This document shows, piece by piece, positions 925 through 28,338 of a stretch of 64,000 nt of DNA. Within the stretch, counting starts at the first letter, position 1. Every line of letters begins with the position of its first letter. Origin of the DNA: Streptomyces sp. NBC_00490 (GTDB taxonomy: Bacteria > Actinomycetota > Actinomycetes > Streptomycetales > Streptomycetaceae); assembly GCF_036013645.1 (NCBI RefSeq), contig NZ_CP107870.1, forward strand, positions 124,001 to 188,000. Direction: 5' to 3'. The notes below the pieces were generated by a model that saw nothing but the letters and a program-made list of their open reading frames with translations, ran no database searches and was not told the origin of the DNA. Made by a program: the position numbers and the translations under genes.

Positions 925-1012
925 GGGAACTCCTTCGGTCGCTTCGGTCGCTGATCGCCGGTGTGGCACGGCGTCGGCCGCGACCGTCGGGCCCGGCCGT
1001 CAGGTGTCGGGC

Positions 1013-17674: not shown

Positions 17675-18076
17675 CTACAGCGGCAGCGTGATCCCCAGCT
17701 CCCGCATCGCCGAAGACGGCGGCCCGCCCTCTGACCGCTCGGTCTTGCACCCCTTGCTGCCGGGCGCCAGCGTGCGCGGGTCCACCGCCTCGGCAGGCGC
17801 GCCGGTCGCGTAGAGACCTTCGGGGTCGGTGTCCCGGTCGTGCGGAAGCAGCCAGAACACCCGGCGCCGGAAAGTACCCGAGGAACGGGACGGCTTGGCC
17901 CCGGGACCCAGCAGTGCGTAGCCGACCATGCGGCCGTCGCGGTGGTAGGGGGGCTTGCCACGGCGCGTCGTCAGCCGGTCCAGGCTCTGACGCACGTAGT
18001 CGAGCGTGTCGATGTCCTCGAGCCAGACGAAGTCGTCCTCATGAACGAGCTCGTCCTCAGCAATGAGGGCGCTCAT
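17675..18076 (-). CDS. Conserved protein of replication cassette A, unknown function
   Basis: This 133-residue acidic protein belongs to no family I recognise. It is clearly paralogous to the 127-residue protein ending cassette B. Both share VWLEDxDxLDYVRQxLD, KPPYxRDGRMVGYALL, RRRVFxLLPHDRDT and GxPxEAVDPRT, and diverge after about residue 105. Its ATG overlaps the primase stop by 4 bp (ATGA), so it is translationally coupled as the third gene of prim-pol, primase, small protein. Conservation in both cassettes suggests a replication accessory or regulatory role, for example helicase loading or copy control, but nothing in the sequence proves this. Confidence 0.8.
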   Translation of the reverse strand: MSALIAEDELVHEDDFVWLEDIDTLDYVRQSLDRLTTRRGKPPYHRDGRMVGYALLGPGAKPSRSSGTFRRRVFWLLPHDRDTDPEGLYATGAPAEAVDPRTLAPGSKGCKTERSEGGPPSSAMRELGITLPL

Positions 18077-19572
18077 GCTGTCTCCTCGTCGGCGACCACT
18101 CCGATGCCCGGGTAGTACTTGCGCTGGTTGGACAGGATCATCTCCTTGGGCGACGCCAGTCCCACCACTTCTCGCACTCGTGCCGCGAAGGCCCGGGACG
18201 AGATCGCTGGGGCACCCTCATTCTGACACCAGGTCTTATAAACCGCGTAGAGCTGTGCCTGTTCCGCCCTCAGCGCCGGTGCGACCCGGCAGGACTCGGA
18301 GAGGAATCGCCCGGTATGGTCCTCGGTCTCCGCGTACGCCGTGGTGGCGATCCGCACCCGTTCGGGCCCGGTGAGGTTCTTCTCGCCGCTCAGGTAGCGA
18401 CGGGCCCCCAGGATCAGCCAGTTGAGGATTCCGGGACCCTCCTCGGTGACGAGGATGTCGGCCAGGTTGTCGATCTTCCGGTCGTCGGGCACGACCCGCT
18501 CGAACGGGATCAGCCGCATCCGCCGCCAGAACGCGAAGCCACCGGTGCCCACTTCGGGCCGGTGATTGCCCAGCAGCCAGAGTTTGTGGGTGGGTTCGAA
18601 GCTGAAGAAGTCCTGCCTCATGCGGCGCGCCTTGATCCGGTCGCCGCCCGTCAGCAGCTTCACCCGGGCCTCGTCGAACCGGTCCCCCGGCTTGACCTCG
18701 CTGCACACGATGACCCGGCGGCCGTGCAGCTCCGCCAGGTCGGTGGGGTGCCCCTCGTAGGGCCGGGCCATCAGGAAGCCGGGCGGGGCCGCGTCGGCGT
18801 AGTCCCCCACCAGCTTCATCAGGACGTCCAGCAGCACCGACTTGCCGTTCTTGCCGGACCCGAACAGGAACGGCATGACCTGCCCGCCGACGTCCCCGGT
18901 GATGGAGTACCCCAGCAGCAGATGCAGGAAGTCGATCATCTCCGCGCCCTCGGTCCCGTCGCCGAAGGTGTCGACGAGGAACCGGTCCCAGCGCGGGGTG
19001 GGCATCGGCTGGGGGGCCGCGGTGGTGGAGCGGGAGTGGAAGTCCTTGTCGGGGTCGGGCGTACGGATCAGTCCGGTGCGCAGGTCGACGATGCCGGCTG
19101 GGGTGCACAGCGCGTACGGGTCGGCGTCCAGCCGGGCCGCGTTGAGCACCATGCCGGGCGCGGACCGGGCCTGCGCGAGCATGGCGTTCATGCCGCTGGT
19201 GCTGAGCGCACGACGGCGGTGCTGCTGCAGCGCGGTGGAGGTGAACACGCCTCGCGGGTCGTTGCTCGCCAGGGACTCCGCGAGGTCTCCCGCGGCCCAC
19301 ATGACGGTGTCGTCCTCGTCGATCTGCCACCGGGTGCTGTCCCAGCGGAACCAGCCGAGGCCGGGCACATGCCGGTAGTCGTTGGAGTAGAGCTTGACGA
19401 ACAGTTTGGCGTTGCCCCGGTCGCTGAGGGTGTCGGGCAGCAGTCCGTCGGCCGTGGCCTCTCCCTGCGCGGGGGCGTCCTCGGAGCGGCGGGCATGCGG
19501 TACGGGCTGGGCGAGGATCTGCGCGGCGACGGCCTGGGCGTCGAAGAGTGTGTCGTCCTGGCGGGACGTCAT
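18073..19572 (-). CDS. D5/P4-type plasmid primase-helicase, cassette A
   Basis: The 499-residue SF3-type helicase is of the phage/plasmid primase P4 family. The D5_N region is at about 60-215 and the Walker A is FGSGKNGKS (237-245). The helicase core continues through RVIVCSEVKP and KLLTGGDRIKARRMRQDFFSF to KLWLLGNHRPEV. A C-terminal winged-helix (poxvirus D5-like) region follows. It would unwind the origin as a hexamer. ATGA overlaps join it to the upstream prim-pol and the downstream small protein. By eye about 60% of residues match the cassette B helicase, with the weakest similarity in the first 50 residues. It is the likely replication initiator partner of the AGCGAC iterons upstream of the cassette. 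Confidence 0.93.
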   Translation of the reverse strand: MTSRQDDTLFDAQAVAAQILAQPVPHARRSEDAPAQGEATADGLLPDTLSDRGNAKLFVKLYSNDYRHVPGLGWFRWDSTRWQIDEDDTVMWAAGDLAESLASNDPRGVFTSTALQQHRRRALSTSGMNAMLAQARSAPGMVLNAARLDADPYALCTPAGIVDLRTGLIRTPDPDKDFHSRSTTAAPQPMPTPRWDRFLVDTFGDGTEGAEMIDFLHLLLGYSITGDVGGQVMPFLFGSGKNGKSVLLDVLMKLVGDYADAAPPGFLMARPYEGHPTDLAELHGRRVIVCSEVKPGDRFDEARVKLLTGGDRIKARRMRQDFFSFEPTHKLWLLGNHRPEVGTGGFAFWRRMRLIPFERVVPDDRKIDNLADILVTEEGPGILNWLILGARRYLSGEKNLTGPERVRIATTAYAETEDHTGRFLSESCRVAPALRAEQAQLYAVYKTWCQNEGAPAISSRAFAARVREVVGLASPKEMILSNQRKYYPGIGVVADEETA

Positions 19573-20666
19573 GCGCGTCCTCCTGGGGACAGCGGGCGCG
19601 TACGGCCGGCGTTCAGACCGCTACGGATGATGGCCGTGTAACGGCGCTCCTGCCCCGGCCTGGCATGCTCGGCGGCCTCGCTGAGGACCCGCTCTGCCTC
19701 CGTCGCCTCCAGCTGTCCCCCGGCCACGAGCCCTCCTGCGGTATATGCGGCACGGTTCAACTTCTCGGAGAACGCGGCGCCTTCGGCTACGGCGGCACAG
19801 GCGGCCACCTCTTCGAGTAGTGCGCCCAGCACCCGGCTCACCGCTCCGCGGCCGCCGCCCGCGGCCAGGACGGCCTGCCGGGCCCGCGGTGGGACCGGCC
19901 TCGGCGCGGGCACGTACGCGGGCGGCAGGTGTCCGGTGCGCTCCAGCTCGCGGGCCAGCCAGTCGGGCAGTGGTGCGGGCTCCCGTACCTCTCCCACCAC
20001 TTCGTACACACCGGCTTCGGTCACGGTGCCGGGGGCGACGATGTACCCGCCGTGCGCCCGTACGTCGACCTGCCAGGCGAGCGCGCGGCCACCGGATCCC
20101 GTGGAGCACTGCCAGCGACGCCCGCCATGCGCCCGGTACCAGACGTGCAGCCCGCCCGAGGGGGTGCGCACGCGAAGGGTCGTCTCGTCGTCGGCGGGGC
20201 TGTCGAAGCCGCGCAGGGCGGCCAGCAGACCGATCGTGTGGAAGCCGTTGGCGAGCCCGGTCAGGTCGATCCCCTCGGAGATGGTGATGCCGGGTAACAG
20301 CCGGTCCCGTCCGGGGAGTTCGCGCTCATGAGCATCGATGTCGACGACCAGCAGGTTGGCGGGTCCACAGGCGATCCCGACACCGAAGCCCGGGTGGGCG
20401 CCCCACCACTGCTCGATGCGGGCGAAGTCGAGGGTGGCGGCGTGAAAGCCATGACACCAGCGACCGGCCGCCGGACAGCCGCAGCCCTTGTGATGGTGCC
20501 CGGGCAGCCGGCAGGTCTCGCAGTTGCCCGCAGGCGTCTTGCGTCCCGGTGCCAGCGGATGGACGGGCCAGCCTCGGCTGGCACACCACCGGGCCGTCGC
20601 CAACGGGCCTGCCACCGGAGCGGACGACCGTGAGTAGCTACGTGAGTTGTGCAGCTCAGAGGCCAT
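19569..20666 (-). CDS. Bifunctional primase/polymerase (prim-pol), cassette A
   Basis: The 365-residue archaeo-eukaryotic-type primase/polymerase has RWCASRGWPVHPLAPGRKTP at about 27-46, a Cys/His cluster (CETC...GHHHKGCGC) that may bind zinc, the metal-binding DID of LLVVDIDAHE and later RVRTPSGGLHVWY. The C-terminal third (FSEKLNRAAYTAGGLVAGGQ) is shared with the cassette B protein. The start at 20666 (MASELHNSRS) is preferred for its GGTGGGGG site; the frame is open a little further. It would lay primers or start synthesis at the plasmid origin. It is first gene of cassette A and reads away from the AGCGAC iteron field, which begins 15 bp upstream of its start. Confidence 0.9.
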   Translation of the reverse strand: MASELHNSRSYSRSSAPVAGPLATARWCASRGWPVHPLAPGRKTPAGNCETCRLPGHHHKGCGCPAAGRWCHGFHAATLDFARIEQWWGAHPGFGVGIACGPANLLVVDIDAHERELPGRDRLLPGITISEGIDLTGLANGFHTIGLLAALRGFDSPADDETTLRVRTPSGGLHVWYRAHGGRRWQCSTGSGGRALAWQVDVRAHGGYIVAPGTVTEAGVYEVVGEVREPAPLPDWLARELERTGHLPPAYVPAPRPVPPRARQAVLAAGGGRGAVSRVLGALLEEVAACAAVAEGAAFSEKLNRAAYTAGGLVAGGQLEATEAERVLSEAAEHARPGQERRYTAIIRSGLNAGRTRPLSPGGRA

Positions 20667-21197
20667 TCGCACCCCCCACCAGCGACCGAAGCGACTGAGC
20701 GACCGGCACAGCATAGCTAAGGAGGTGGGGCCCGAACGTCCCTTGGGAAAACAGATATTCGAGCCAGTTCAGTGGCCAGCGACTCACGTGGTTTCGGTAG
20801 CTGCTCAGCCGTCCGAGCGAAGCCGCAGGTCAGAGAAGTAAGAGTGATCAAACAGCGACTGAAGCGACTCAAGCTCGCTATATATGACGCCAACGCGCAC
20901 GCACACGCACACACACGAATGTCTCCATATACCCAGACCTTCGGTCGCTTCAGTCGCTGTTCAACCGGGGAGAAGCCTCTGACCTGGCCTTTTCCAGCAG
21001 CGACCGAAAGCTACCGAAGGGGCACTCGGTAGCTTCTCTTCAGTCGCTCCCCCGTAGGCCCTATTCGGCCACAGCGACTCAAGCCCCCTCCCCTCCCCCA
21101 CCCAAGTCCCAGAGCGACTCAAGCGACTGTGAAGCGAGAACGCCCTCCCGGCCGGGAAGCGGCTACCAGGCTCCACACGGCTGAGTCGCTTGGGTCG
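20667..21197. repeat. Iteron field A (AGCGACyC/G-AAG), candidate origin of replication
   Basis: At least eight clusters of the repeat AGCGACTSAAG or AGCGACCGAAG occur in both orientations at about 20681, 20854, 20943, 20998, 21039, 21073, 21112 and 21184. Some are tandem with a 9-10 bp step (AGCGACTGAAGCGACTCAAG at 20854). The field also holds an A+T-rich patch (CTCGCTATATATGACG near 20874), an alternating purine-pyrimidine CGCGCACGCACACGCACAC tract (from 20894) and a GCTACCGA/GGTAGC dyad. It contains no gene. Placement directly upstream of the prim-pol/primase cassette fits an iteron-type origin. Confidence 0.75.
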
Positions 21198-21214
21198 CTA
21201 TTACGACGTAATAG
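21198..21214. repeat. 17-bp palindrome copy 1, candidate ParB site
   Basis: CTATTACGACGTAATAG, an 8-bp perfect dyad around a single central base. It lies between iteron field A and the HTH gene. Confidence 0.6.
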
Positions 21215-21378
21215 CCGCGCCCCCGCTCCCCTCCTCTCCCCTCCCCTCCCCTCCCCCACCCCCGGGGTTGAGGAACTTCGCCCCTGGCCTGCCCCATACT
21301 GATCTCCCGTAATGACATCGCGCCCCACCCCTGTCCGGGCAGCGGGCCATGAGAACCGGAGCCGAGGGAGGAGACGGG

Positions 21379-21951
21379 ATGCCGGATCGCACCCATGAGT
21401 TCGGCAAGTACGGTGCCCGAGGCGTCAAGGGGTACGAAGCAGTCGCCCACCGGCTGGATGCCCTCGCCGGCTACATCGCCACCCCGGTCACCGCCCGGCG
21501 TGGTCTGCTGGCCCGCCTGCACTACCTGACCCGCAGCGAGCACGCCCTGGCGGCCGCACGCTCCGCAGGCCTGACGGTCACCGACCGCACCCTCAAGGCG
21601 TGGCTGGACGGCAGACGCAGTCCGTCGAAGAAGAACCTCGAACGCATCGAGACGGCGTACCGAACCGTCCGCCGTCACAACGTGGCCCGCTATCTCCTGG
21701 CCCGCCTCAACCGCGAAGGCCGCGGCACCCGCGTCGAGATCCACCCGCTCAACCAGTCCCAGGTCTCCCGCCCGCGTCAGCGCGTCGTGGAGTTCCGCAC
21801 CCTCAACATCCGGCACTGGGACCGCATCGTCGAAGCCTGGGCCAACGACAACATCCAGGCCCTCGACGACGCCTGGATCGACCAGATCGTCGACCTCGGC
21901 TCCCAGTGGGGCCAGTACGAGTACGTCACCAACGTGGGCTTCGCAGCCTGA
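21379..21951 (+). CDS. HTH DNA-binding protein of the replication module
   Basis: I do not recognise the family. The 190-residue protein has a central helix-turn-helix-like stretch (SAGLTVTDRTLKAWLDGRRS, about 58-77) followed by a basic helix (KKNLERIETAYRTVRRHNVA). Its C-terminal half is conserved-looking and Trp-rich (RTLNIRHWDRIVEAWANDNI). The size and HTH-plus-C-domain plan recall Tpg-type terminal proteins or plasmid regulators, but no decisive motif is visible. The ATG at 21379 is chosen because GGAGGAG precedes it; an ATG 30 bp upstream is possible. It is alone on the plus strand between iteron field A and convergent parB. Palindrome copies flank it at both ends. Confidence 0.75.
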   Translation: MPDRTHEFGKYGARGVKGYEAVAHRLDALAGYIATPVTARRGLLARLHYLTRSEHALAAARSAGLTVTDRTLKAWLDGRRSPSKKNLERIETAYRTVRRHNVARYLLARLNREGRGTRVEIHPLNQSQVSRPRQRVVEFRTLNIRHWDRIVEAWANDNIQALDDAWIDQIVDLGSQWGQYEYVTNVGFAA

Positions 21952-21952
21952 G

Positions 21953-21969
21953 CTATTACGTCGTAATAG
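21953..21969. repeat. 17-bp palindrome copy 2, candidate ParB site
   Basis: CTATTACGTCGTAATAG, central base T, extended to GAGC...GCTC. It begins right after the HTH-gene stop and can also form a terminator-like hairpin. Confidence 0.6.
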
Positions 21970-21978
21970 CTCGGCCCC

Positions 21979-21995
21979 CTATTACGACGTAATAG
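21979..21995. repeat. 17-bp palindrome copy 3, candidate ParB site
   Basis: CTATTACGACGTAATAG with flanking GCCCC/GGGGC makes a 27-bp dyad between the convergent HTH gene and parB. It is only 26 bp from copy 2. Confidence 0.6.
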
Positions 21996-22016
21996 GGGGC
22001 CGACTCATCAGACAGC

Positions 22017-23117
22017 TCAGACAGCCTGGCCGTCACTCTCCACCAGATCGGCTCGCTGCTCTTGATGCTCGTTGAGGATCCGCAGCATCTTGTCGAACTC
22101 GGTGTCGCTCATCTTCCGGATGAGGTGCATCGCGAGGAAGGCACCATCGTCGTAGGGAAGCTTCGGCGGCATCCGCAGATCGGCCTCAGCAGTCTCAGCA
22201 GTCTCAGCGGCCTCGACTGGTGAGACTTCCTGAGCCGCCTTGCTCGCCGAGGACGAGGCGTTGCCGCGAGGCTCAGGGACCGTCTCCGCACGCTGCACCG
22301 GTGCTTCGACAGCCAGCGCCTTCTCCTGGCGGGCACCATCCTCTATTACGCCGTAATAGCCCTCGACCCCATCCTCCGGCTTCTGCGCCCGGCGCTCCTG
22401 CTTCAGGACCTCCTTGCGGACCCGCTCGGCCTTCAGCTCCTCCAGTACCTCTTCCTGCTGCTCGGCCGGCTTGTTGCCGACGGCCCGCAGCAGATCGATG
22501 GGCTCCTGACCGACCCGCTGCTGGAGTTCGGGCGTCAGGTTGAGCAGAGCGAGCCTCTGCGACACCCATCCCTGCGAACGGTGCAGCCGCTTCGCCAGGG
22601 CCGTCTGGCTCCCGTGGATCACAAGCAGCCGTTGCAGCGCGCGGGCCTCGTCGAGCTCCTCGAGGTCCTGCCGGTGGATGTTGGCGACCAGCGCCGACTC
22701 CAGGAGCTCTTCGGAGGTGGCGCCCTGCTCGTCACTGACCATCACCTTGACGGAGCCCAGACCCGCCTCACGGGCGGCCGCGAGGCGGCTGCTGCCGTCG
22801 ATGACGACATAGGTCGTCTCCGGCTCCAGAGCGGCCTCGTGCGCAGGGTTGGCCTTCACATAGGCGTCGCGGTTCATGACCGTGATCGCCTGCTTCTGTC
22901 CGTGCGTCTTCAGGCTCCCTGCCAGATCGGTCAGGTCGCCGAGGCTGGAGCGCGGGTTGTCCGGGTTGAGGCTCACACGGTCGGTGGGCAGTTCCGAGGG
23001 CGGGGCGACCCCTTCGGTCGGCACCCCGGTCGCCGCGGCCACGGCCTGCCGGCGCGCGCTGATGCCTCGGGTGGCCCCGCCGAAGCGGCCGGCGCCCAGC
23101 TGATCGGCCTTGCTCAT
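22017..23117 (-). CDS. parB: ParB-family partition protein
   Basis: The 366-residue ParB/Spo0J-like protein has an N-terminal ParB/Srx-fold domain with VSLNPDNPRS (about 49-58), YVVIDGSSRLAAAREAG (the CTPase/sulfiredoxin-like core) and ESALVANIHRQDLEELDEA. A HTH region follows (SQTALAKRLHRSQGWVSQRL, about 171-190). The C-terminal third is a charged, low-complexity linker (VEAAETAETAEA) and a short end domain for dimerization. Its ATG overlaps the parA stop by 4 bp, so the two are coupled. A palindrome copy lies inside the coding region as GYYGVIE. It segregates the replicon by loading on centromere sites; the CTATTACGNCGTAATAG family is the best candidate. Confidence 0.92.
   Translation of the reverse strand: MSKADQLGAGRFGGATRGISARRQAVAAATGVPTEGVAPPSELPTDRVSLNPDNPRSSLGDLTDLAGSLKTHGQKQAITVMNRDAYVKANPAHEAALEPETTYVVIDGSSRLAAAREAGLGSVKVMVSDEQGATSEELLESALVANIHRQDLEELDEARALQRLLVIHGSQTALAKRLHRSQGWVSQRLALLNLTPELQQRVGQEPIDLLRAVGNKPAEQQEEVLEELKAERVRKEVLKQERRAQKPEDGVEGYYGVIEDGARQEKALAVEAPVQRAETVPEPRGNASSSASKAAQEVSPVEAAETAETAEADLRMPPKLPYDDGAFLAMHLIRKMSDTEFDKMLRILNEHQEQRADLVESDGQAV
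22343..22359. repeat. 17-bp palindrome copy 4 inside parB
   Basis: CTATTACGCCGTAATAG, central base C. It is kept as a perfect dyad within the parB reading frame, which argues that it is selected for DNA binding. Confidence 0.6.
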
Positions 23118-24349
23118 GAGATCTCCCGCGCGAGGGCCCGCATACCGACCGCCTGCTGGGACTTGGGGGCGTAGGACAGCAGCGGCTGCTTCACCCGCAC
23201 AGCCTCCTTCTGCTCCTTGAGGTCCCCGATGAGTCCGACGACCTTCGGATCCTTTATGTCGACCCACCCTTGGAGGGAGGAGGTGGCGATGTATCCGCGT
23301 CGGGAGTCGTAGAGGTTGACGACGATCCCGAGGTAGTCGATGTCGATCTGCAGGTCGCCGCGCAGGTCGTCGATCTGAGTGGTGAGCAGCTCGTAGGCGT
23401 CGGCGGAACTGTCCTCGGCCTGGACGACGATGAGCGCGCCTGACTGGCCGGGCTTCTCGCCGTCGCGTCGCCTGCCGTAGTAGGCCGCGGCGTCCATGCT
23501 GAGCCCGAGGCTGGGCGGGCAGTCGACGAGGATGACGTCGTAGTGCGCCTCCAGGGGGGCCAGGGCCCGCTCCAGGGCGGCTTCCCGGGCCCGGACGGCT
23601 GACAGGCGTACGTCGAGGAGGAAGGCGTCGTTGCACGCGGGCAGCAGGTGCAGGCGGCCGGCGAAGTGTTCGTCGTCGACGGAGATGATGAGGTCGCGCA
23701 GGTCTCCCTTGGGGTCGCCCGCCATGTGGTTGGTGAGGCTGTCGCCGTTCATCGGCAGGGGAGTGCCACCCAGTTGGTTGGTGAGGTGGCACTGTGGGTC
23801 GAAGTCGACGAGCAGGACCCGCAGTCCGAGCCCGGGCAGGTCCTCGGTGTCGAGCGGGCTGTCGAGCGCGTCGCTGGCGGCCGCGAGCTGCTTGGCGATA
23901 CGGACGGGGTAGAGGCGGCTGGGATTCTCCGCGAGCGCCTCACCGGTGCCGGCGGTGATGGCCGTCTTGCCGACGCCGCCCTTCTGGTTGCAGACGACGA
24001 TCCGGCGGGTGATGGCCGGCCTCTCGACGTCCGGTGCGGGATGCGTGTCCAGCCACAACTGCACGGACTGGGCCAGACCCTGGATGAGAGAGACTCGACG
24101 GTCGCTCGCGATCCGCTTGAACTCGTCCCACTGTCCTTCCGGCAGGAAGGTGGAGAACGAGTCGGCGCCGGAGGTGTCGACCCCGGCTGTCGCCGATGCG
24201 AGGTTGCACCAGTCCTGGATGCCCTGCTCTACGGCGGCCTGGATCTCGATGCCCTTCTGGGCCGCTCTGACCTTGAGGTCCTGCCGGAGCCATCCCGGCA
24301 GCTTGGAGACGACCTTTTCACGGTCGTTCGGGGAGGCTGGAGAAGTCAT
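23114..24349 (-). CDS. parA: ParA-family partition ATPase
   Basis: This is a 411-residue type Ia-like ParA. An N-terminal extension of about 110 residues, rich in short helices (possible DNA-binding/autoregulatory domain: WLRQDLKVRAAQKGIEIQAA), precedes the deviant Walker A NQKGGVGKTA (121-130). Then come the A' motif (VLLVDFDPQCHLTNQL), Walker B (DVILVDCPPSLGLS) and a late GIVVNLYDSRRGY segment. It powers segregation of ParB-bound DNA over the nucleoid. It is first gene of the parAB operon. A 7-bp inverted repeat (CTAACGC...GCGTTAG) starts 13 bp upstream of its ATG and is a plausible autorepression operator. Confidence 0.94.
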   Translation of the reverse strand: MTSPASPNDREKVVSKLPGWLRQDLKVRAAQKGIEIQAAVEQGIQDWCNLASATAGVDTSGADSFSTFLPEGQWDEFKRIASDRRVSLIQGLAQSVQLWLDTHPAPDVERPAITRRIVVCNQKGGVGKTAITAGTGEALAENPSRLYPVRIAKQLAAASDALDSPLDTEDLPGLGLRVLLVDFDPQCHLTNQLGGTPLPMNGDSLTNHMAGDPKGDLRDLIISVDDEHFAGRLHLLPACNDAFLLDVRLSAVRAREAALERALAPLEAHYDVILVDCPPSLGLSMDAAAYYGRRRDGEKPGQSGALIVVQAEDSSADAYELLTTQIDDLRGDLQIDIDYLGIVVNLYDSRRGYIATSSLQGWVDIKDPKVVGLIGDLKEQKEAVRVKQPLLSYAPKSQQAVGMRALAREIS

Positions 24350-24361
24350 GGGGTCACCTTA

Positions 24362-24398
24362 CTAACGCAGGTGATCAAAAACGCGAACGACGCGTTAG
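24362..24398. promoter_or_regulatory. Inverted repeat upstream of parA, putative operator
   Basis: CTAACGC and GCGTTAG face each other across 23 bp, 13 bp upstream of the parA ATG. ParA proteins with N-terminal extensions often repress their own operon, so this is the obvious site. Confidence 0.45.
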
Positions 24399-24410
24399 CT
24401 AGGCCAGGTT

Positions 24411-24427
24411 TTATTACGACGTAATAG
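24411..24427. repeat. 17-bp palindrome copy 5, candidate ParB site
   Basis: TTATTACGACGTAATAG, one end mismatched relative to the consensus. It lies between the parA promoter and iteron field B. Confidence 0.55.
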
Positions 24428-24429
24428 AG

Positions 24430-25005
24430 CGAGGGACCGAGCAGAGGGACGGAGAGGGCCTGAGGGACTGTTCGGTCCCTGGGCTTCAGTCCCTGGTATC
24501 TGTGCAGGTCAGAGCGTTTTGGGGGGTCAGATCAGGGACCGTAGGGACTCAACTTCCTAATTATGAGCTGGAGTAGAGCTTTTTTCGTACGCGCGTGCGC
24601 ATCTGTCTCTACATGTGCTAGTTCAGCTCATAATTAGAGAGTTGAGTCCCTACAGTCCCTGTTGAAGAGGGGGAAAACGCGCTGACCTGCGGTTTTGTGC
24701 AGGGACTGAAGGAAGGGACGGTCCCTCCAGGGACTCTAGGTTCAGTCCCTGGAGGCTCTCTCGAGGGTTCAGTCCCTCCAGCCACTCTCAAGTGACCCAA
24801 AACGGCACCGACCGATGGGGGAGTGGCACCCCGCCGGAGGCCGAAGGGACTCAAGGGACCGAAGGAACTGATAGAACGCCACGCGGTGGGAGTTGCCTCA
24901 CTCCCAGTTGACATGCCTCTACACTCTTCCCGAAACACAGTCCCTTCGGTCCCTGATAGAACATCACCCACACCCGTGGCCTGGTGTTTTCTCAGGGACT
25001 GAGCC
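24430..25005. repeat. Iteron field B (AGGGACyC/G-AAG), candidate second origin
   Basis: About fifteen repeats of AGGGACTSAAG, AGGGACCGAAG or their complements (CAGTCCCT, CGGTCCCT) fill 24430-25005. They are the same pattern as field A with C changed to G at the third position. The centre holds a 27-bp imperfect inverted repeat (arms 24544-24570 and 24624-24650, containing CTAATTATGAGCTG and CAGCTCATAATTAG). The 53-bp spacer includes TTTTTT and an alternating GTACGCGCGTGCGC tract. No gene is present. It lies directly upstream of the plus-strand cassette B and overlaps the earliest possible start of its prim-pol. Confidence 0.75.
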
Positions 25006-25043
25006 ATAGAACCGAACCACGAGACCCGACAAGGACGATCAGC

Positions 25044-26120
25044 GTGCCGCGCCCCGGTGACATCCGCCTGCCTGCCGCCCCGGCCAGGTCCGCGACACCG
25101 CATGCCGTCGCCCGCTGGTGCGCCGCTCAGGGCTGGCCGGTCCATCCGCTGGCTCCCGGCCGCAAGACCCCGGCCGCCAACTGCCCCGAGTGCAGGGACC
25201 GAAGCCACGACCCGAAGACATGCCCCTGCCTGCCCGCAGGACGCCCCTGCCACGGCTTCCACGCCGCCACCACCAACACGCGGTACATCGACGCCTGGTG
25301 GGGGAGCAGCCCCTCCGCAGGCGTAGGCGTCGCCTGCGGTCCGGCCGAGCTCGTCGTCCTCGACGTGGACGCCCACAGCGCCCAGGTCCCCGACCGTGGC
25401 CGCCTCCTGCCGGGCATCCCCATCCCCGATGCCGTGAACCTCACCGGCCTCGCCTCGGGCTTCGACACCCTTGCCCTTCTCGCGGCCTTCCGGGGCCAGC
25501 CCGACCCGACCCACGACGAGACGACCCTGCGCGTGCGCACCCCCTCAGGGGGCCTGCACATCTGGTACCGCAACCCGCACCCGGCAACCCGGCTGCGCTG
25601 CTCGACCGGCTCCAGCCCCAAGGTCGCGCTGGCCTGGCAGGTCGATGTGAGGGCCGAGGGCGGGTACATCATCGCCCCCACCACCCGCACCGCCCAGGGC
25701 ACTTACGCGCCCGAGGGCACCGCACGCCTGCCCGCACCACTGCCCGGCTGGCTGCACGCCGAACTCGTCCGCACCGGTCACGTCATCGCCCCACCGGTCC
25801 CCAGGCAGCCTGTCGTACGGACCCGTCGTACCCGCAGACCCGCCGCGGCCCACCGTGTCCTCACACCGCTTGTCGACGAGATCGCCCAGTGCGCGACCGC
25901 GTCCGAAGGAACCGGGTTCACGGAGAAGCTCAACCGAGCCGCCTACACCGCAGGAGGCCTCGTGGCAGCCGGCCACCTGGAGGAGACCGCAGTCCGCGAC
26001 CAACTCCGCGCCACGGCCGCCGAGGCCAGGCCCTGGCAGACCGCCCGCAACGAAAAGATCATCGACGACGGCCTTGCCGCTGGGGCCGCCCACCCGTTCC
26101 GTCTCGAAGGACGTTCATGA
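25044..26120 (+). CDS. Bifunctional primase/polymerase (prim-pol), cassette B
   Basis: The 358-residue AEP-type primase/polymerase is paralogous to the cassette A protein. It shares ARWCAAQGWPVHPLAPGRKT near the N-terminus and a Cys-rich element (CPECRDRSHDPKTCPC, likely zinc-binding). The metal-site DVD lies in VVLDVDAHSA, followed by RVRTPSGGLHIWYR and FTEKLNRAAYTAGGLVAAGH. The GTG at 25044 is chosen for AAGGACG upstream; an in-frame GTG at 24984 lies inside the iterons and would add 20 residues. It is coupled to the next gene by ATGA. It probably primes replication from iteron field B. Confidence 0.9.
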   Translation: MPRPGDIRLPAAPARSATPHAVARWCAAQGWPVHPLAPGRKTPAANCPECRDRSHDPKTCPCLPAGRPCHGFHAATTNTRYIDAWWGSSPSAGVGVACGPAELVVLDVDAHSAQVPDRGRLLPGIPIPDAVNLTGLASGFDTLALLAAFRGQPDPTHDETTLRVRTPSGGLHIWYRNPHPATRLRCSTGSSPKVALAWQVDVRAEGGYIIAPTTRTAQGTYAPEGTARLPAPLPGWLHAELVRTGHVIAPPVPRQPVVRTRRTRRPAAAHRVLTPLVDEIAQCATASEGTGFTEKLNRAAYTAGGLVAAGHLEETAVRDQLRATAAEARPWQTARNEKIIDDGLAAGAAHPFRLEGRS

Positions 26121-27652
26121 GCAGCGCCGAGAGCATGCCGCGGTTCGACGCACAGGCCGCGGCTCAGCAGATGCTCGACCTCCAGGCGGCCGAGCAGCCA
26201 CCCGCACTGCTCCCCGCGCAGGCCTCCGGAGTCCCCGGCAGCCTGCCCTTCGCATCCCTGCAGTCCGGCATGCTGCCCCCGCACCTCAGCGACCGCGGCA
26301 ACGCCCGCCTCTTCGTCCAGCTCTACCGCGACCAGTTCCGCCACGTTGAAGGCCTCGGCTGGTTCTCCTGGGACGGCTACCGCTGGAAGCGCACCGGCGG
26401 TGAGAAGGCCGCCCTGTGGGCAGCGGGGGAGATGGCCGAGGACATGCCCGAAACCGACCCCCGCGGGGTCTTCAGCAACCGGGAACTGTCCTCGCACAAG
26501 AGGAAGACGCTCTCCACCACGGGCATGAAGGCCCTGCTCACCCAGGCCAAGGCGTCCCCGGACCTCTCCGTCGACCCCGACACTCTCGACGGCGACCCCT
26601 ACGCCCTGTGCACCCCCGGCGGAGTCGTCGATCTGCACACCGGCCACCTCCGCAAAGCGGACCCCACCCTGGACTTCCACTCCCGCGCCACCAGCGTCGC
26701 CCCCCAGCCGATGGAGACCCCGCGCTGGCACCGCTTCCTCGCCGACACCTTCGGCGACGACGCGGAGGGCCAGGAGATGATCAACTTCTTCCACCTGCTG
26801 CTCGGCTACTCCATCACCGGCGATGTCGGCGCCCAGGTGCTGCCGTTCCTCCACGGAGAGGGCAAGAACGGCAAGAGCGTCCTGCTCGACACGATGATCC
26901 AGATCCTCGGCGACTACGCCGACGCGGCCCCGCCCGGCTTCCTCATGGACCGCGGTGCGTTCTCCGAGCACTCCACCGAGCTCACCGAACTGCACGGCCG
27001 CCGCCTGATCGTGTGCAGCGAGCTCAAGCCCAACGACAAGTTCGACGAGGCCAGAGTCCGCCTCCTGACCGGCGGCGACAAGATCAAAGCCCGCCGCATG
27101 CGGCAGGACTACTTCTCCTTCACCCCCACCCACCACCTCTGGCTGCTGGGCAACCACCGCCCCGAGGTCTCCACCGGCGGCTACGCCTTCTGGCGCCGCA
27201 TCCGGCTGCTGCCCTTCACCCGCACCGTTCCCGCCGCCCGCCGGATCGACAACCTCGCCTTCGAACTCGTACGGGACGAGGGCCCCGGCATCCTTCACTG
27301 GCTCATCGAAGGCGCCCGGCGCTACCTCATCACCAGGGACCCCCTGGAGGGCCCCGACCGGGTGCGGATCGCCACCACCGCCTACGCCAACACCGAAGAC
27401 CACATCGGCCGCTTCCTCAACGAATGCTGCACCCGTGCCGTCGACAACGGCAGCGAACTGCGCGTCGAGCAGGGCCTGTTGTTCGCGGAGTACAGCTCCT
27501 GGTGCAATGCAGGCGAAGGCATCCGCCCCGCCTCGCCCCGCGCCTTCGCCACCCGAGTCCGGCAGGAAGTCGGCCTCGCCTCACCCACCGACATGATCAA
27601 GTCCAACGGCCGCAAGTACTACCCGGGCATCGCCCTCCTGGGGACCGAATGA
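26117..27652 (+). CDS. D5/P4-type plasmid primase-helicase, cassette B
   Basis: The 511-residue SF3 helicase has Walker A HGEGKNGKS (about 250-258), RLIVCSELKPNDKFDEARVR, LLTGGDKIKARRMRQDYFSF and HLWLLGNHRPEVS, then a C-terminal winged-helix region ending in KYYPGIALLG. The cassette A homologue likewise ends KYYPGIGVV. The start MSSAESMPRF overlaps the prim-pol stop. The first 50 residues differ strongly from cassette A, while the rest is roughly 60% identical by eye, so the N-terminus is a good candidate for origin or partner specificity. Confidence 0.93.
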   Translation: MSSAESMPRFDAQAAAQQMLDLQAAEQPPALLPAQASGVPGSLPFASLQSGMLPPHLSDRGNARLFVQLYRDQFRHVEGLGWFSWDGYRWKRTGGEKAALWAAGEMAEDMPETDPRGVFSNRELSSHKRKTLSTTGMKALLTQAKASPDLSVDPDTLDGDPYALCTPGGVVDLHTGHLRKADPTLDFHSRATSVAPQPMETPRWHRFLADTFGDDAEGQEMINFFHLLLGYSITGDVGAQVLPFLHGEGKNGKSVLLDTMIQILGDYADAAPPGFLMDRGAFSEHSTELTELHGRRLIVCSELKPNDKFDEARVRLLTGGDKIKARRMRQDYFSFTPTHHLWLLGNHRPEVSTGGYAFWRRIRLLPFTRTVPAARRIDNLAFELVRDEGPGILHWLIEGARRYLITRDPLEGPDRVRIATTAYANTEDHIGRFLNECCTRAVDNGSELRVEQGLLFAEYSSWCNAGEGIRPASPRAFATRVRQEVGLASPTDMIKSNGRKYYPGIALLGTE

Positions 27653-27812
27653 CGCACCGCACACCACCCCCGACAACCCCCCACGCTCTATATCTCGCCC
27701 AGCGGCCGAACTACGATGTCCCTCTGGCCCCGCTAGCGGCGGCCTCCAGAACACGCACGAACCAGTCCGGCCCCCGCATTGCGCACAGGCCGGCGAAGGA
27801 AGGGCTGCGGCC

Positions 27813-28196
27813 ATGAGCTCGCTGTTGACCGAGAGCGACCTCACCCACGAGGCGGACGTGGTGTGGCTGGAGGACCCAGACAACCTCGACTACGTCCGCC
27901 AGGCCCTGGACAAGACCAAGCGCCGCAACAACAAGCCTCCCTACGCCCGGGACGGCCGGATGGTCGGCTACGCCCTCCTCGATGACGAGGCCGAACCCGA
28001 CCCCGACAGCGGGCTCTACAAGCGGCGGGTCTTCTTCCTCCTCCCGCACGACCGGGACACCCTGCCCGACGGCCTCTACCGCGAGGGAGCCCCCGGCGAG
28101 GCCGTGGACCCCCGCACGATCGAACCCAGGAAGCCCGGCGCGAAGACCCCTCGCTCGCAACGGGGACCGGCCGCCATAGCGTCCGTGACGCCGTAA
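27813..28196 (+). CDS. Conserved protein of replication cassette B, unknown function
   Basis: This 127-residue homologue of the cassette A small protein has the same blocks in the same order (VVWLEDPDNLDYVRQALD, KPPYARDGRMVGYALL, RRVFFLLPHDRDT, AVDPRTIEP). Unlike its counterpart it is separated from the primase by 160 bp instead of overlapping it. GAAGGAAGGG lies upstream of the ATG. Gene order is otherwise mirror-symmetric with cassette A, which supports a shared replication function of unknown kind. Confidence 0.8.
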   Translation: MSSLLTESDLTHEADVVWLEDPDNLDYVRQALDKTKRRNNKPPYARDGRMVGYALLDDEAEPDPDSGLYKRRVFFLLPHDRDTLPDGLYREGAPGEAVDPRTIEPRKPGAKTPRSQRGPAAIASVTP

Positions 28197-28256
28197 TCAG
28201 CGGTCGCAAATCACCCAAAAGGTATTCAAACATACTGAACTCCCCACCCTGGCAAG

Positions 28257-28273
28257 CTATTACGTCGTAATAG
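28257..28273. repeat. 17-bp palindrome copy 6, candidate ParB site
   Basis: CTATTACGTCGTAATAG, downstream of cassette B at the right boundary of the replication module. Confidence 0.6.
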
Positions 28274-28321
28274 CCGAGGGCTCGGAGCGCAGCGCCGGGC
28301 GAACTCTCCCCGCCCGAACGC

Positions 28322-28338
28322 CTATTACGACGTAATAG
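28322..28338. repeat. 17-bp palindrome copy 7, candidate ParB site
   Basis: CTATTACGACGTAATAG, 65 bp after copy 6. The 303-bp gap after cassette B holds only these two palindromes; nothing else was recognised between them and the small ORF at 28.5 kb. Confidence 0.6.

Follow-up and report, generated by a model that had tools for sequence, protein, structure and literature searches.

Our analysis of a 64,000-nucleotide stretch of Streptomyces sp. NBC_00490 (hereafter the window) suggests that one Streptomyces plasmid carries two SCP1-like replication origins, in which a helicase of the D5/P4 family would act as initiator and its C-terminal winged helix would read the iterons, and that such origins fall into three orthogonal specificity classes. 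We regard this as the probable explanation. The window covers bases 124,001-188,000 of contig C2, which is 230,517 bases long and one of the two contigs of a 10.8-Mb genome, and its nearest relatives are Streptomyces. The contig is probably a plasmid. It holds two repeat fields, A and B, and each precedes its own cassette, as a sequence-only reading of this DNA had described. Each cassette has a bifunctional DNA primase/polymerase (PrimPol) gene and a D5/P4-family helicase (D5) gene, paralogous between A and B.

That reading had also placed here two repeat families a single base apart and in both orientations, and they are indeed there, with 15 AGCGAC units in field A and 20 AGGGAC units in field B. 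Exact AGCGAC units are absent from field B, and the single AGGGAC of field A (20738-20743) has no YS after it. The repeat unit is 9 bp long, AG[C/G]GACYSA, and frequently forms head-to-tail pairs. Allowing at most one mismatch, AGCGACTSAAG matched the window 17 times (shuffles: mean 1.92, maximum 6) and AGGGACTSAAG 18 times (mean 1.46, maximum 7); the two lists overlap because the patterns are one base apart. The density of the core plus YS was 22.0 per kb in field A and 25.9 per kb in field B, against 0.25 and 0.14 per kb, respectively, in the remaining window. Comparable density elsewhere in the genome, which the sequence-only reading had named as evidence against itself, was not seen: 10 of the 13 genome-wide matches to the tandem AGSGACYSAAGSGACYSA (at most one mismatch) lie inside the two fields, the other three are single places (C2:38290, C2:124935 and C1:2212314), and the reversed pattern, used as a control, had no match in the whole genome. 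Isolated iteron-like tandem pairs occur outside the fields at window positions 933-952 and at C2:38290.

The same one-base difference runs through the relatives. We read the DNA upstream of PrimPol in 80 loci kept of 134 confirmed from a genome collection, and in others from further genome searches. Fields with eight or more units of one class were called full, and a class was assigned when it had four or more units and three times the rest. Before counting we dropped one low-scoring PrimPol piece of 121, near-identical duplicates, D5 matches with low scores or missing ends, and upstream slices above 1000 bases (L295 alone). Among 120 upstream regions, some of which repeat one another, 87 were mostly AGCGAC, 31 mostly AGGGAC and two neither; the minority letter reached at most two units in the AGCGAC-rich and at most three in the AGGGAC-rich regions. 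Our claim of purity rests on a count without class filter, because the classes of an earlier count already capped the wrong letter. Units of a second class were absent from 124 of the 171 full fields, numbering one in 37, two in nine and three in one, and no field was mixed. With a neighbouring unit and GAC as the only anchors, base 3 was C in 97.8% of 447 units and G in 97.6% of another 211. As a side observation, the variant unit AGCTAC was found 129 times in AGCGAC-class fields vs twice in AGGGAC-class fields, under classes that already cap the wrong letter.

The letter of the field follows the clade of the helicase. In the trees built from 122 cassettes, for PrimPol and for D5 alike, one branch parts all 92 C-class from all 29 G-class cassettes (27 AGGGAC and two CGGGAC; one further cassette is classless). 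We then have 199 distinct D5 in a larger tree with FastTree supports and no class assigned by hand: 114 AGCGAC, 59 AGGGAC, eight CGGGAC and 18 without class. Letter and clade agree in all 181 proteins with a field of at least four units, and only two class changes are needed for these tips. A recent local duplication is ruled out because the two cassettes of the window fall in two D5 clades common to many relatives; D5-A and D5-B share 62-63% identity, each nested inside its own clade. The duplicated origin proposed from sequence alone thus stands as two homologous initiator cassettes, each with its own letter, but as an old split rather than a recent event on this plasmid. The accompanying proposal, that initiator and iterons changed together, agrees with the 181 cases, although the partner that tracks the letter best is D5 and not PrimPol.

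A third class, CGGGAC, first became visible as two cassettes with ACGGGAC units; here base 1, anchored likewise, was C in 90% of 20 units. Its clade (eight D5 and one without assigned field, support 1.0) lies inside the AGGGAC side of the D5 tree. Eight genomes of the set have two full-length D5 genes of that side. The second of them has CGGGAC units in five genomes (G746, G756, G765, G785 and G932); it has no field and is placed in the CGGGAC clade in G019, is an AGGGAC D5-only gene with seven units in G868, and has no clear field in G884. Several similarly divergent D5 that are the sole AGGGAC-side gene of their genome have AGGGAC. A search for a fourth class in five cassettes that lack a clear field (L187, L282, L286, L324 and L325) found no new repeat; jointly these loci keep a few AGCGAC-like units. 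Distant actinobacterial D5 had no dense field of these units in the stretches covered, 1 kb or 3 kb upstream of the D5 part.

Either protein of the cassette might read the iterons. PrimPol could do so, alone or with D5, while D5 follows as a travelling gene neighbour: the two main classes part just as cleanly in the PrimPol tree as in that of D5, and PrimPol has a conserved cluster of Cys and His, of a kind that can bind DNA. We find this unlikely. There are 28 D5 genes of 199 without an adjoining PrimPol, and in such cassettes each of the three classes is represented by class-pure fields immediately in front of D5 (7 of the 171 full fields: two AGCGAC, one AGGGAC and four CGGGAC), with one more D5-only full field in Kitasatospora; in L251 a PrimPol is present 1.4 kb further upstream. 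Among columns with a conservation of 90% or more in either main class taken separately, 19 of 247 differ between the classes in D5 vs just 1 of 124 in PrimPol (159 cassettes). These two results together therefore point to D5 as the reader, with the iterons following D5 and not PrimPol. The predicted structure of PrimPol closes with four helices (266-348) and lacks winged-helix strands there. By analogy, D5 may bind the iterons much as the D5-type helicase Cch2, whose isolated C-terminal domain binds its iterons, or as the Rep of SaPI, whose C-terminal domain recognises its origin (PMC7581432). Five D5-only genes (L179, L202, L265, L266 and L267) face an AGCGAC cassette, match without about 30 N-terminal residues and have 0-7 units upstream; they are possible relics or regulators.

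Full fields of different classes live together, and those of the same class hardly do. Among 79 genomes with at least one full field (the window's included), 27 have two or more, giving 31 pairs, 30 of which join different classes. In 20,000 shuffles of the labels, same-class pairs averaged 11.4 and never fell below 2, vs one observed. Different-class pairs are 2.8 to 67 kb apart, in several orientations, also on separate contigs, and in three class combinations; one genome (G932) has all three classes. Restricted to complete PrimPol and D5 cassettes with at least five units, none of 23 pairs in 21 genomes was same-class. Many genomes had been chosen for reading because of several D5 matches. 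If each D5 were restricted to its own iteron class, different-class origins could therefore share a plasmid or a cell without interference, and interference between same-class origins would be the cause of two full ones being seldom kept. The orthogonal pair suggested by the sequence-only reading fits this co-residence pattern and the rarity of full same-class pairs, although the existence of CGGGAC makes it more than a pair, and the orthogonality itself is a suggestion from sequence comparison. The sole same-class pair at eight units comes from G765, where two contigs carry identical copies of one CGGGAC cassette. As an observation apart, this D5-only cassette (L238 and L297) lies about 30 kb from the ends of the two contigs, as though a chromosome and a plasmid had swapped ends.

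The letters might instead be old marks of lineage, kept by descent and devoid of functional orthogonality. Any D5 would then bind every letter, and the letter of a field would have drifted and spread by homogenisation of the repeats. There are two changes on the D5 tree, and two-cassette plasmids may partly share one ancestral arrangement, as this explanation would have it. Yet the letter stays at 97-98% while unit number and core length vary widely, the fields remain unmixed, and different classes are paired across all the spacings, orientations, contigs and combinations given above. We consider descent alone a rather improbable explanation, if somewhat easier to entertain than iterons read by PrimPol.

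How could D5 discriminate a single base? The model of D5-B has a predicted C-terminal winged helix at about 449-507, with helices at 452-467 and 474-485, the latter the predicted recognition helix, and strands at 494-496, 499-503 and 505-507, the first two forming the predicted wing. Ten-residue means of the predicted local distance difference test (pLDDT) are 71-93 over 441-510; residues 268-360 are below 50 and unreliable. The 50 Foldseek matches listed for this model, which is partly of pLDDT <50, were all chains of AsfvPrimPol or of poxvirus E5, with E values from about 1e-10 to 5e-7 and a TM of only ~0.4. All 59 AGGGAC-class D5 have K or R at 495 and G at 498; in the AGCGAC class (113 listed of 114 D5) these positions hold L, V, F or T and Q or S, respectively. 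Residue 496 is S in the listed D5 of both classes, and all nine members of the CGGGAC clade have K495 and N496, with A, D or V as residue 498. Residues 495, 496 and 498 of D5-B are thus candidate base readers, an assignment that is correlative because there are just two class changes.

We held out 18 D5 cassettes from 16 plasmid records (H1 and 15 chosen from 60 rows); three had been included previously and one minus-strand cassette (L321) was left out for an invalid upstream slice, leaving 14 new ones. The class predicted from the three wing residues was that of the field in 12 of the 14 (six AGGGAC, three CGGGAC and three AGCGAC), and the other two had no clear field. The wing goes with the clade, so what is tested here is the linkage and not the mechanism. 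We propose tentatively, and with less than even confidence, that residues 495/496/498 form a natural specificity code, in which mostly L, S and Q/S would specify AGCGAC, K/R, S and G AGGGAC, and K, N and A/D/V CGGGAC. The three classes would then be mutually orthogonal and amount to replication incompatibility groups, of which one plasmid or cell could stack two or three, PrimPol being shared between D5-only and complete cassettes.

Several points weigh against the reading of D5 as a class-specific initiator. Letter and protein could co-vary by descent alone, given that the class changed just twice, and no recombinant among PrimPol, D5 and field was found in the 122 cassettes, where both trees part the classes without error. 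The same-class contrast is weaker at lower unit thresholds, with 5 of 37 pairs at six units (shuffle mean 14.0, still higher), 6 of 38 at four (mean 14.5) and 8 of 40 at three (mean 15.7, P 0.004); of the same-class pairs listed at thresholds 4, 6 and 8, every one has PrimPol missing from one member or both. Second D5 genes of the same class do occur, without PrimPol and with 0-7 units, and in G868 one contig has an AGGGAC cassette of nine units together with the D5-only AGGGAC field. Paired plasmids share ancestry, so that the pairs are non-independent, and ParAB or other causes could lie behind the co-residence pattern. The 18 D5 without assigned field include seven with a PrimPol match. It is strong in three (L187, L282 and L188); the remaining four score only 75-106 bits, and for these we may have looked for the field at the wrong position. 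Finally, at a strict threshold none of 28 conserved columns differs between AGCGAC and AGGGAC in D5-B 431-511, vs 9 of 33 in 61-120, and the stretch 74-99 also differs between these classes. CGGGAC and AGGGAC differ at six such sites, one alone in the wing and the others at 145, 269, 310, 324 and 453 (numbering shifted by 8).

In their anatomy the fields resemble origins. Full fields hold 8-25 units upstream of the operon, and in 166 of 171 two facing tandem pairs surround a stretch of 58-132 bp; A and B each have two such modules of facing pairs. The stretch between the pairs has a mean AT of 0.49 vs 0.36 for whole fields (166 fields), a contrast favoured by our choice of the most AT-rich stretch where several qualified. 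Under a stricter rule (no unit within the stretch) 161 fields qualify, and their core lengths cluster at 61-65, 71-75 and 84-86 bp in the AGCGAC class, with five fields at 57-58, and at 77-81, 92-99, 106-110 and 120-123 bp in the AGGGAC class, with single fields at 69 and 132. These lengths fit best to a helical period of 11.4 bp when all 161 fields are taken and of 12.0 bp when the 41 distinct class-length values are taken (null P 0.0015). Such a period would place two initiator assemblies on the same side of the helix, flanking a melting region, but it is a lead only, because it was picked after the fact and the relatives are non-independent.

An origin of this type might work as follows. 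The winged helix of D5 would bind the 9-bp iterons, two D5 oligomers would assemble on the facing tandem pairs, the AT-richer stretch between them would open, and D5 would unwind the DNA while PrimPol makes the primers. PrimPol would not be the reader and could be shared between origins. The family would have split into its three classes at the third base (AGCGAC vs AGGGAC) and at the first (AGGGAC vs CGGGAC). It is most improbable that the repeats serve as operators or as centromere-type sites to which a regulator, ParB or the 200-amino-acid protein encoded between the cassettes binds, even if the fields lie at the 5' ends of the cassettes near parAB and this protein adjoins field A. Facing pairs around an AT-richer core resemble an origin, and ParB has other candidate sites, the seven copies of TATTACGNCGTAATA. 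Furthermore, 105 of 155 full-field loci, and 45 of the 73 loci of 14 kb or more, have no homologue of the 200-amino-acid protein, ParA or ParB (E 1e-10) within the fetched stretch.

Parts of this system are already known, namely SCP1-like replicons, D5-type initiators with iterons and other Streptomyces pairs of Rep and iteron, such as that of pWTY27, where the iteron is bound by RepA (PMC3583192). Streptomyces central replicons have been described as a DNA helicase and its iteron, and the additional large replicons analysed encode an SCP1-like replicon (PMC13152386). By that description these replicons of Streptomyces linear plasmids resemble those of the window in joining a helicase with iterons, whereas one-base classes, a third class or a pairing rule are unmentioned in the available part of that paper. 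Judged by domains and description, Cch2 of SCCmec and the SaPI5 Rep are likewise D5/Primase_Cterm helicases beside or fused to a primase (PMC7581432), and an iteron array adjoining the helicase operon is present here as in that type; their origin is downstream of the helicase gene, whereas ours have the field upstream of the operon, and Cch2 has three iterons of 5 nt. Phage P4 alpha, which binds repeats at its origin and is called a winged-helix protein in a cited structure paper, and ORF904 of the archaeal plasmid pRN1 also combine primase, helicase and C-terminal winged helix (PMC4234260). Unlike the proteins of the window they are fused, the P4 primase is of Toprim type, and pRN1 has a stem-loop instead of iterons. 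The closest parallel in logic is SCP1, where two related ParABS systems on one Streptomyces plasmid are kept apart by sites with a single nucleotide difference and lengths that differ by 1 bp (PMC13245405); there the function is partition and the specificity was measured, whereas here the function would be replication and the specificity is deduced. We found no description of the one-base iteron classes, the CGGGAC class or the pairing pattern in the literature searched, which covered few subscription papers.

If the classes are orthogonal, they offer a ready set of compatible replicons for Streptomyces and a rule to predict which large plasmids can coexist, and they would explain how some large Streptomyces plasmids keep two origins. 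They would also be a natural test case of how an initiator moves to a DNA sequence one base away when a dozen or more sites move with it.

Table 1. Features of the two origin regions (positions in the window).
Feature	Position	Strand	Description and evidence
D5-A, D5/P4-family helicase	18073..19572	-	499 aa; class AGCGAC; PF08706 E 2.7e-36, TIGR01613, tree
PrimPol-A, bifunctional DNA primase/polymerase	19569..20666	-	365 aa; PF09250 E 3.7e-38
Iteron field A	20681..21199	both orientations	15 AGCGAC (10 +, 5 -), 9-bp tandem pairs
Origin-core candidate, field A	20854..20958	.	two facing tandem pairs flanking 75 bp (inner 6-base core to core), with ATATAT and ATATAC blocks
Second facing-pair module, field A	21113..21199	.	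unit positions; middle appears GC-rich
200-aa protein, between cassettes	21349..21951	+	no family match
ParB	22017..23117	-	family searches
ParA	23114..24349	-	family searches
Iteron field B	24432..24999	both orientations	20 AGGGAC (11 +, 9 -)
Origin-core candidate, field B	24534..24660	.	facing tandem pairs flanking 97-bp AT-richer stretch; arms TAATTATGAGCTG / CAGCTCATAATTA are inverted repeats
Second facing-pair module, field B	24845..24954	.	unit positions; adjoins PrimPol-B
PrimPol-B	25044..26120	+	358 aa; PF09250 E 1.6e-33
D5-B, D5/P4-family helicase	26117..27652	+	511 aa; class AGGGAC; family searches, tree, structure model
DUF6009 protein, after D5-B	27813..28196	+	family search
Palindrome TATTACGNCGTAATA, seven copies	near 21198, 21953, 21979, 22343, 24411, 28257, 28322		within 21198..28338, around parAB and both cassettes

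The genes around the fields are listed in Table 1. In both cassettes the D5 and PrimPol genes overlap by 4 nt, D5-A at the stop of PrimPol-A. D5_N (PF08706) was found in both helicases (E 2.7e-36 and 1.3e-36), as was TIGR01613 (primase_Cterm; 279 and 257 bits, cut-off 108.7), and D5-A is the proposed initiator of field A. In the fetched plasmid records the two genes are named 'bifunctional DNA primase/polymerase' and 'phage/plasmid primase, P4 family'; 15 of 16 such records are annotated as linear, and Streptomyces atratus has a similar dual layout on a linear plasmid of 918 kb. The palindrome TATTACGNCGTAATA has no exact copy elsewhere in the genome, and its copies are likely to be the parS sites of the plasmid ParB. 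The 200-amino-acid protein had no match in Pfam, NCBIfam or PHROG. It has homologues in 154 plasmid records, 8 of 12 among the matches listed being named 'transcriptional regulator', and in 13 of the 155 loci with a full field. A gene named DUF6009 lies downstream of D5 in 14 of 15 annotated plasmid stretches of relatives, which suggests a role of this protein in the D5 replicon.

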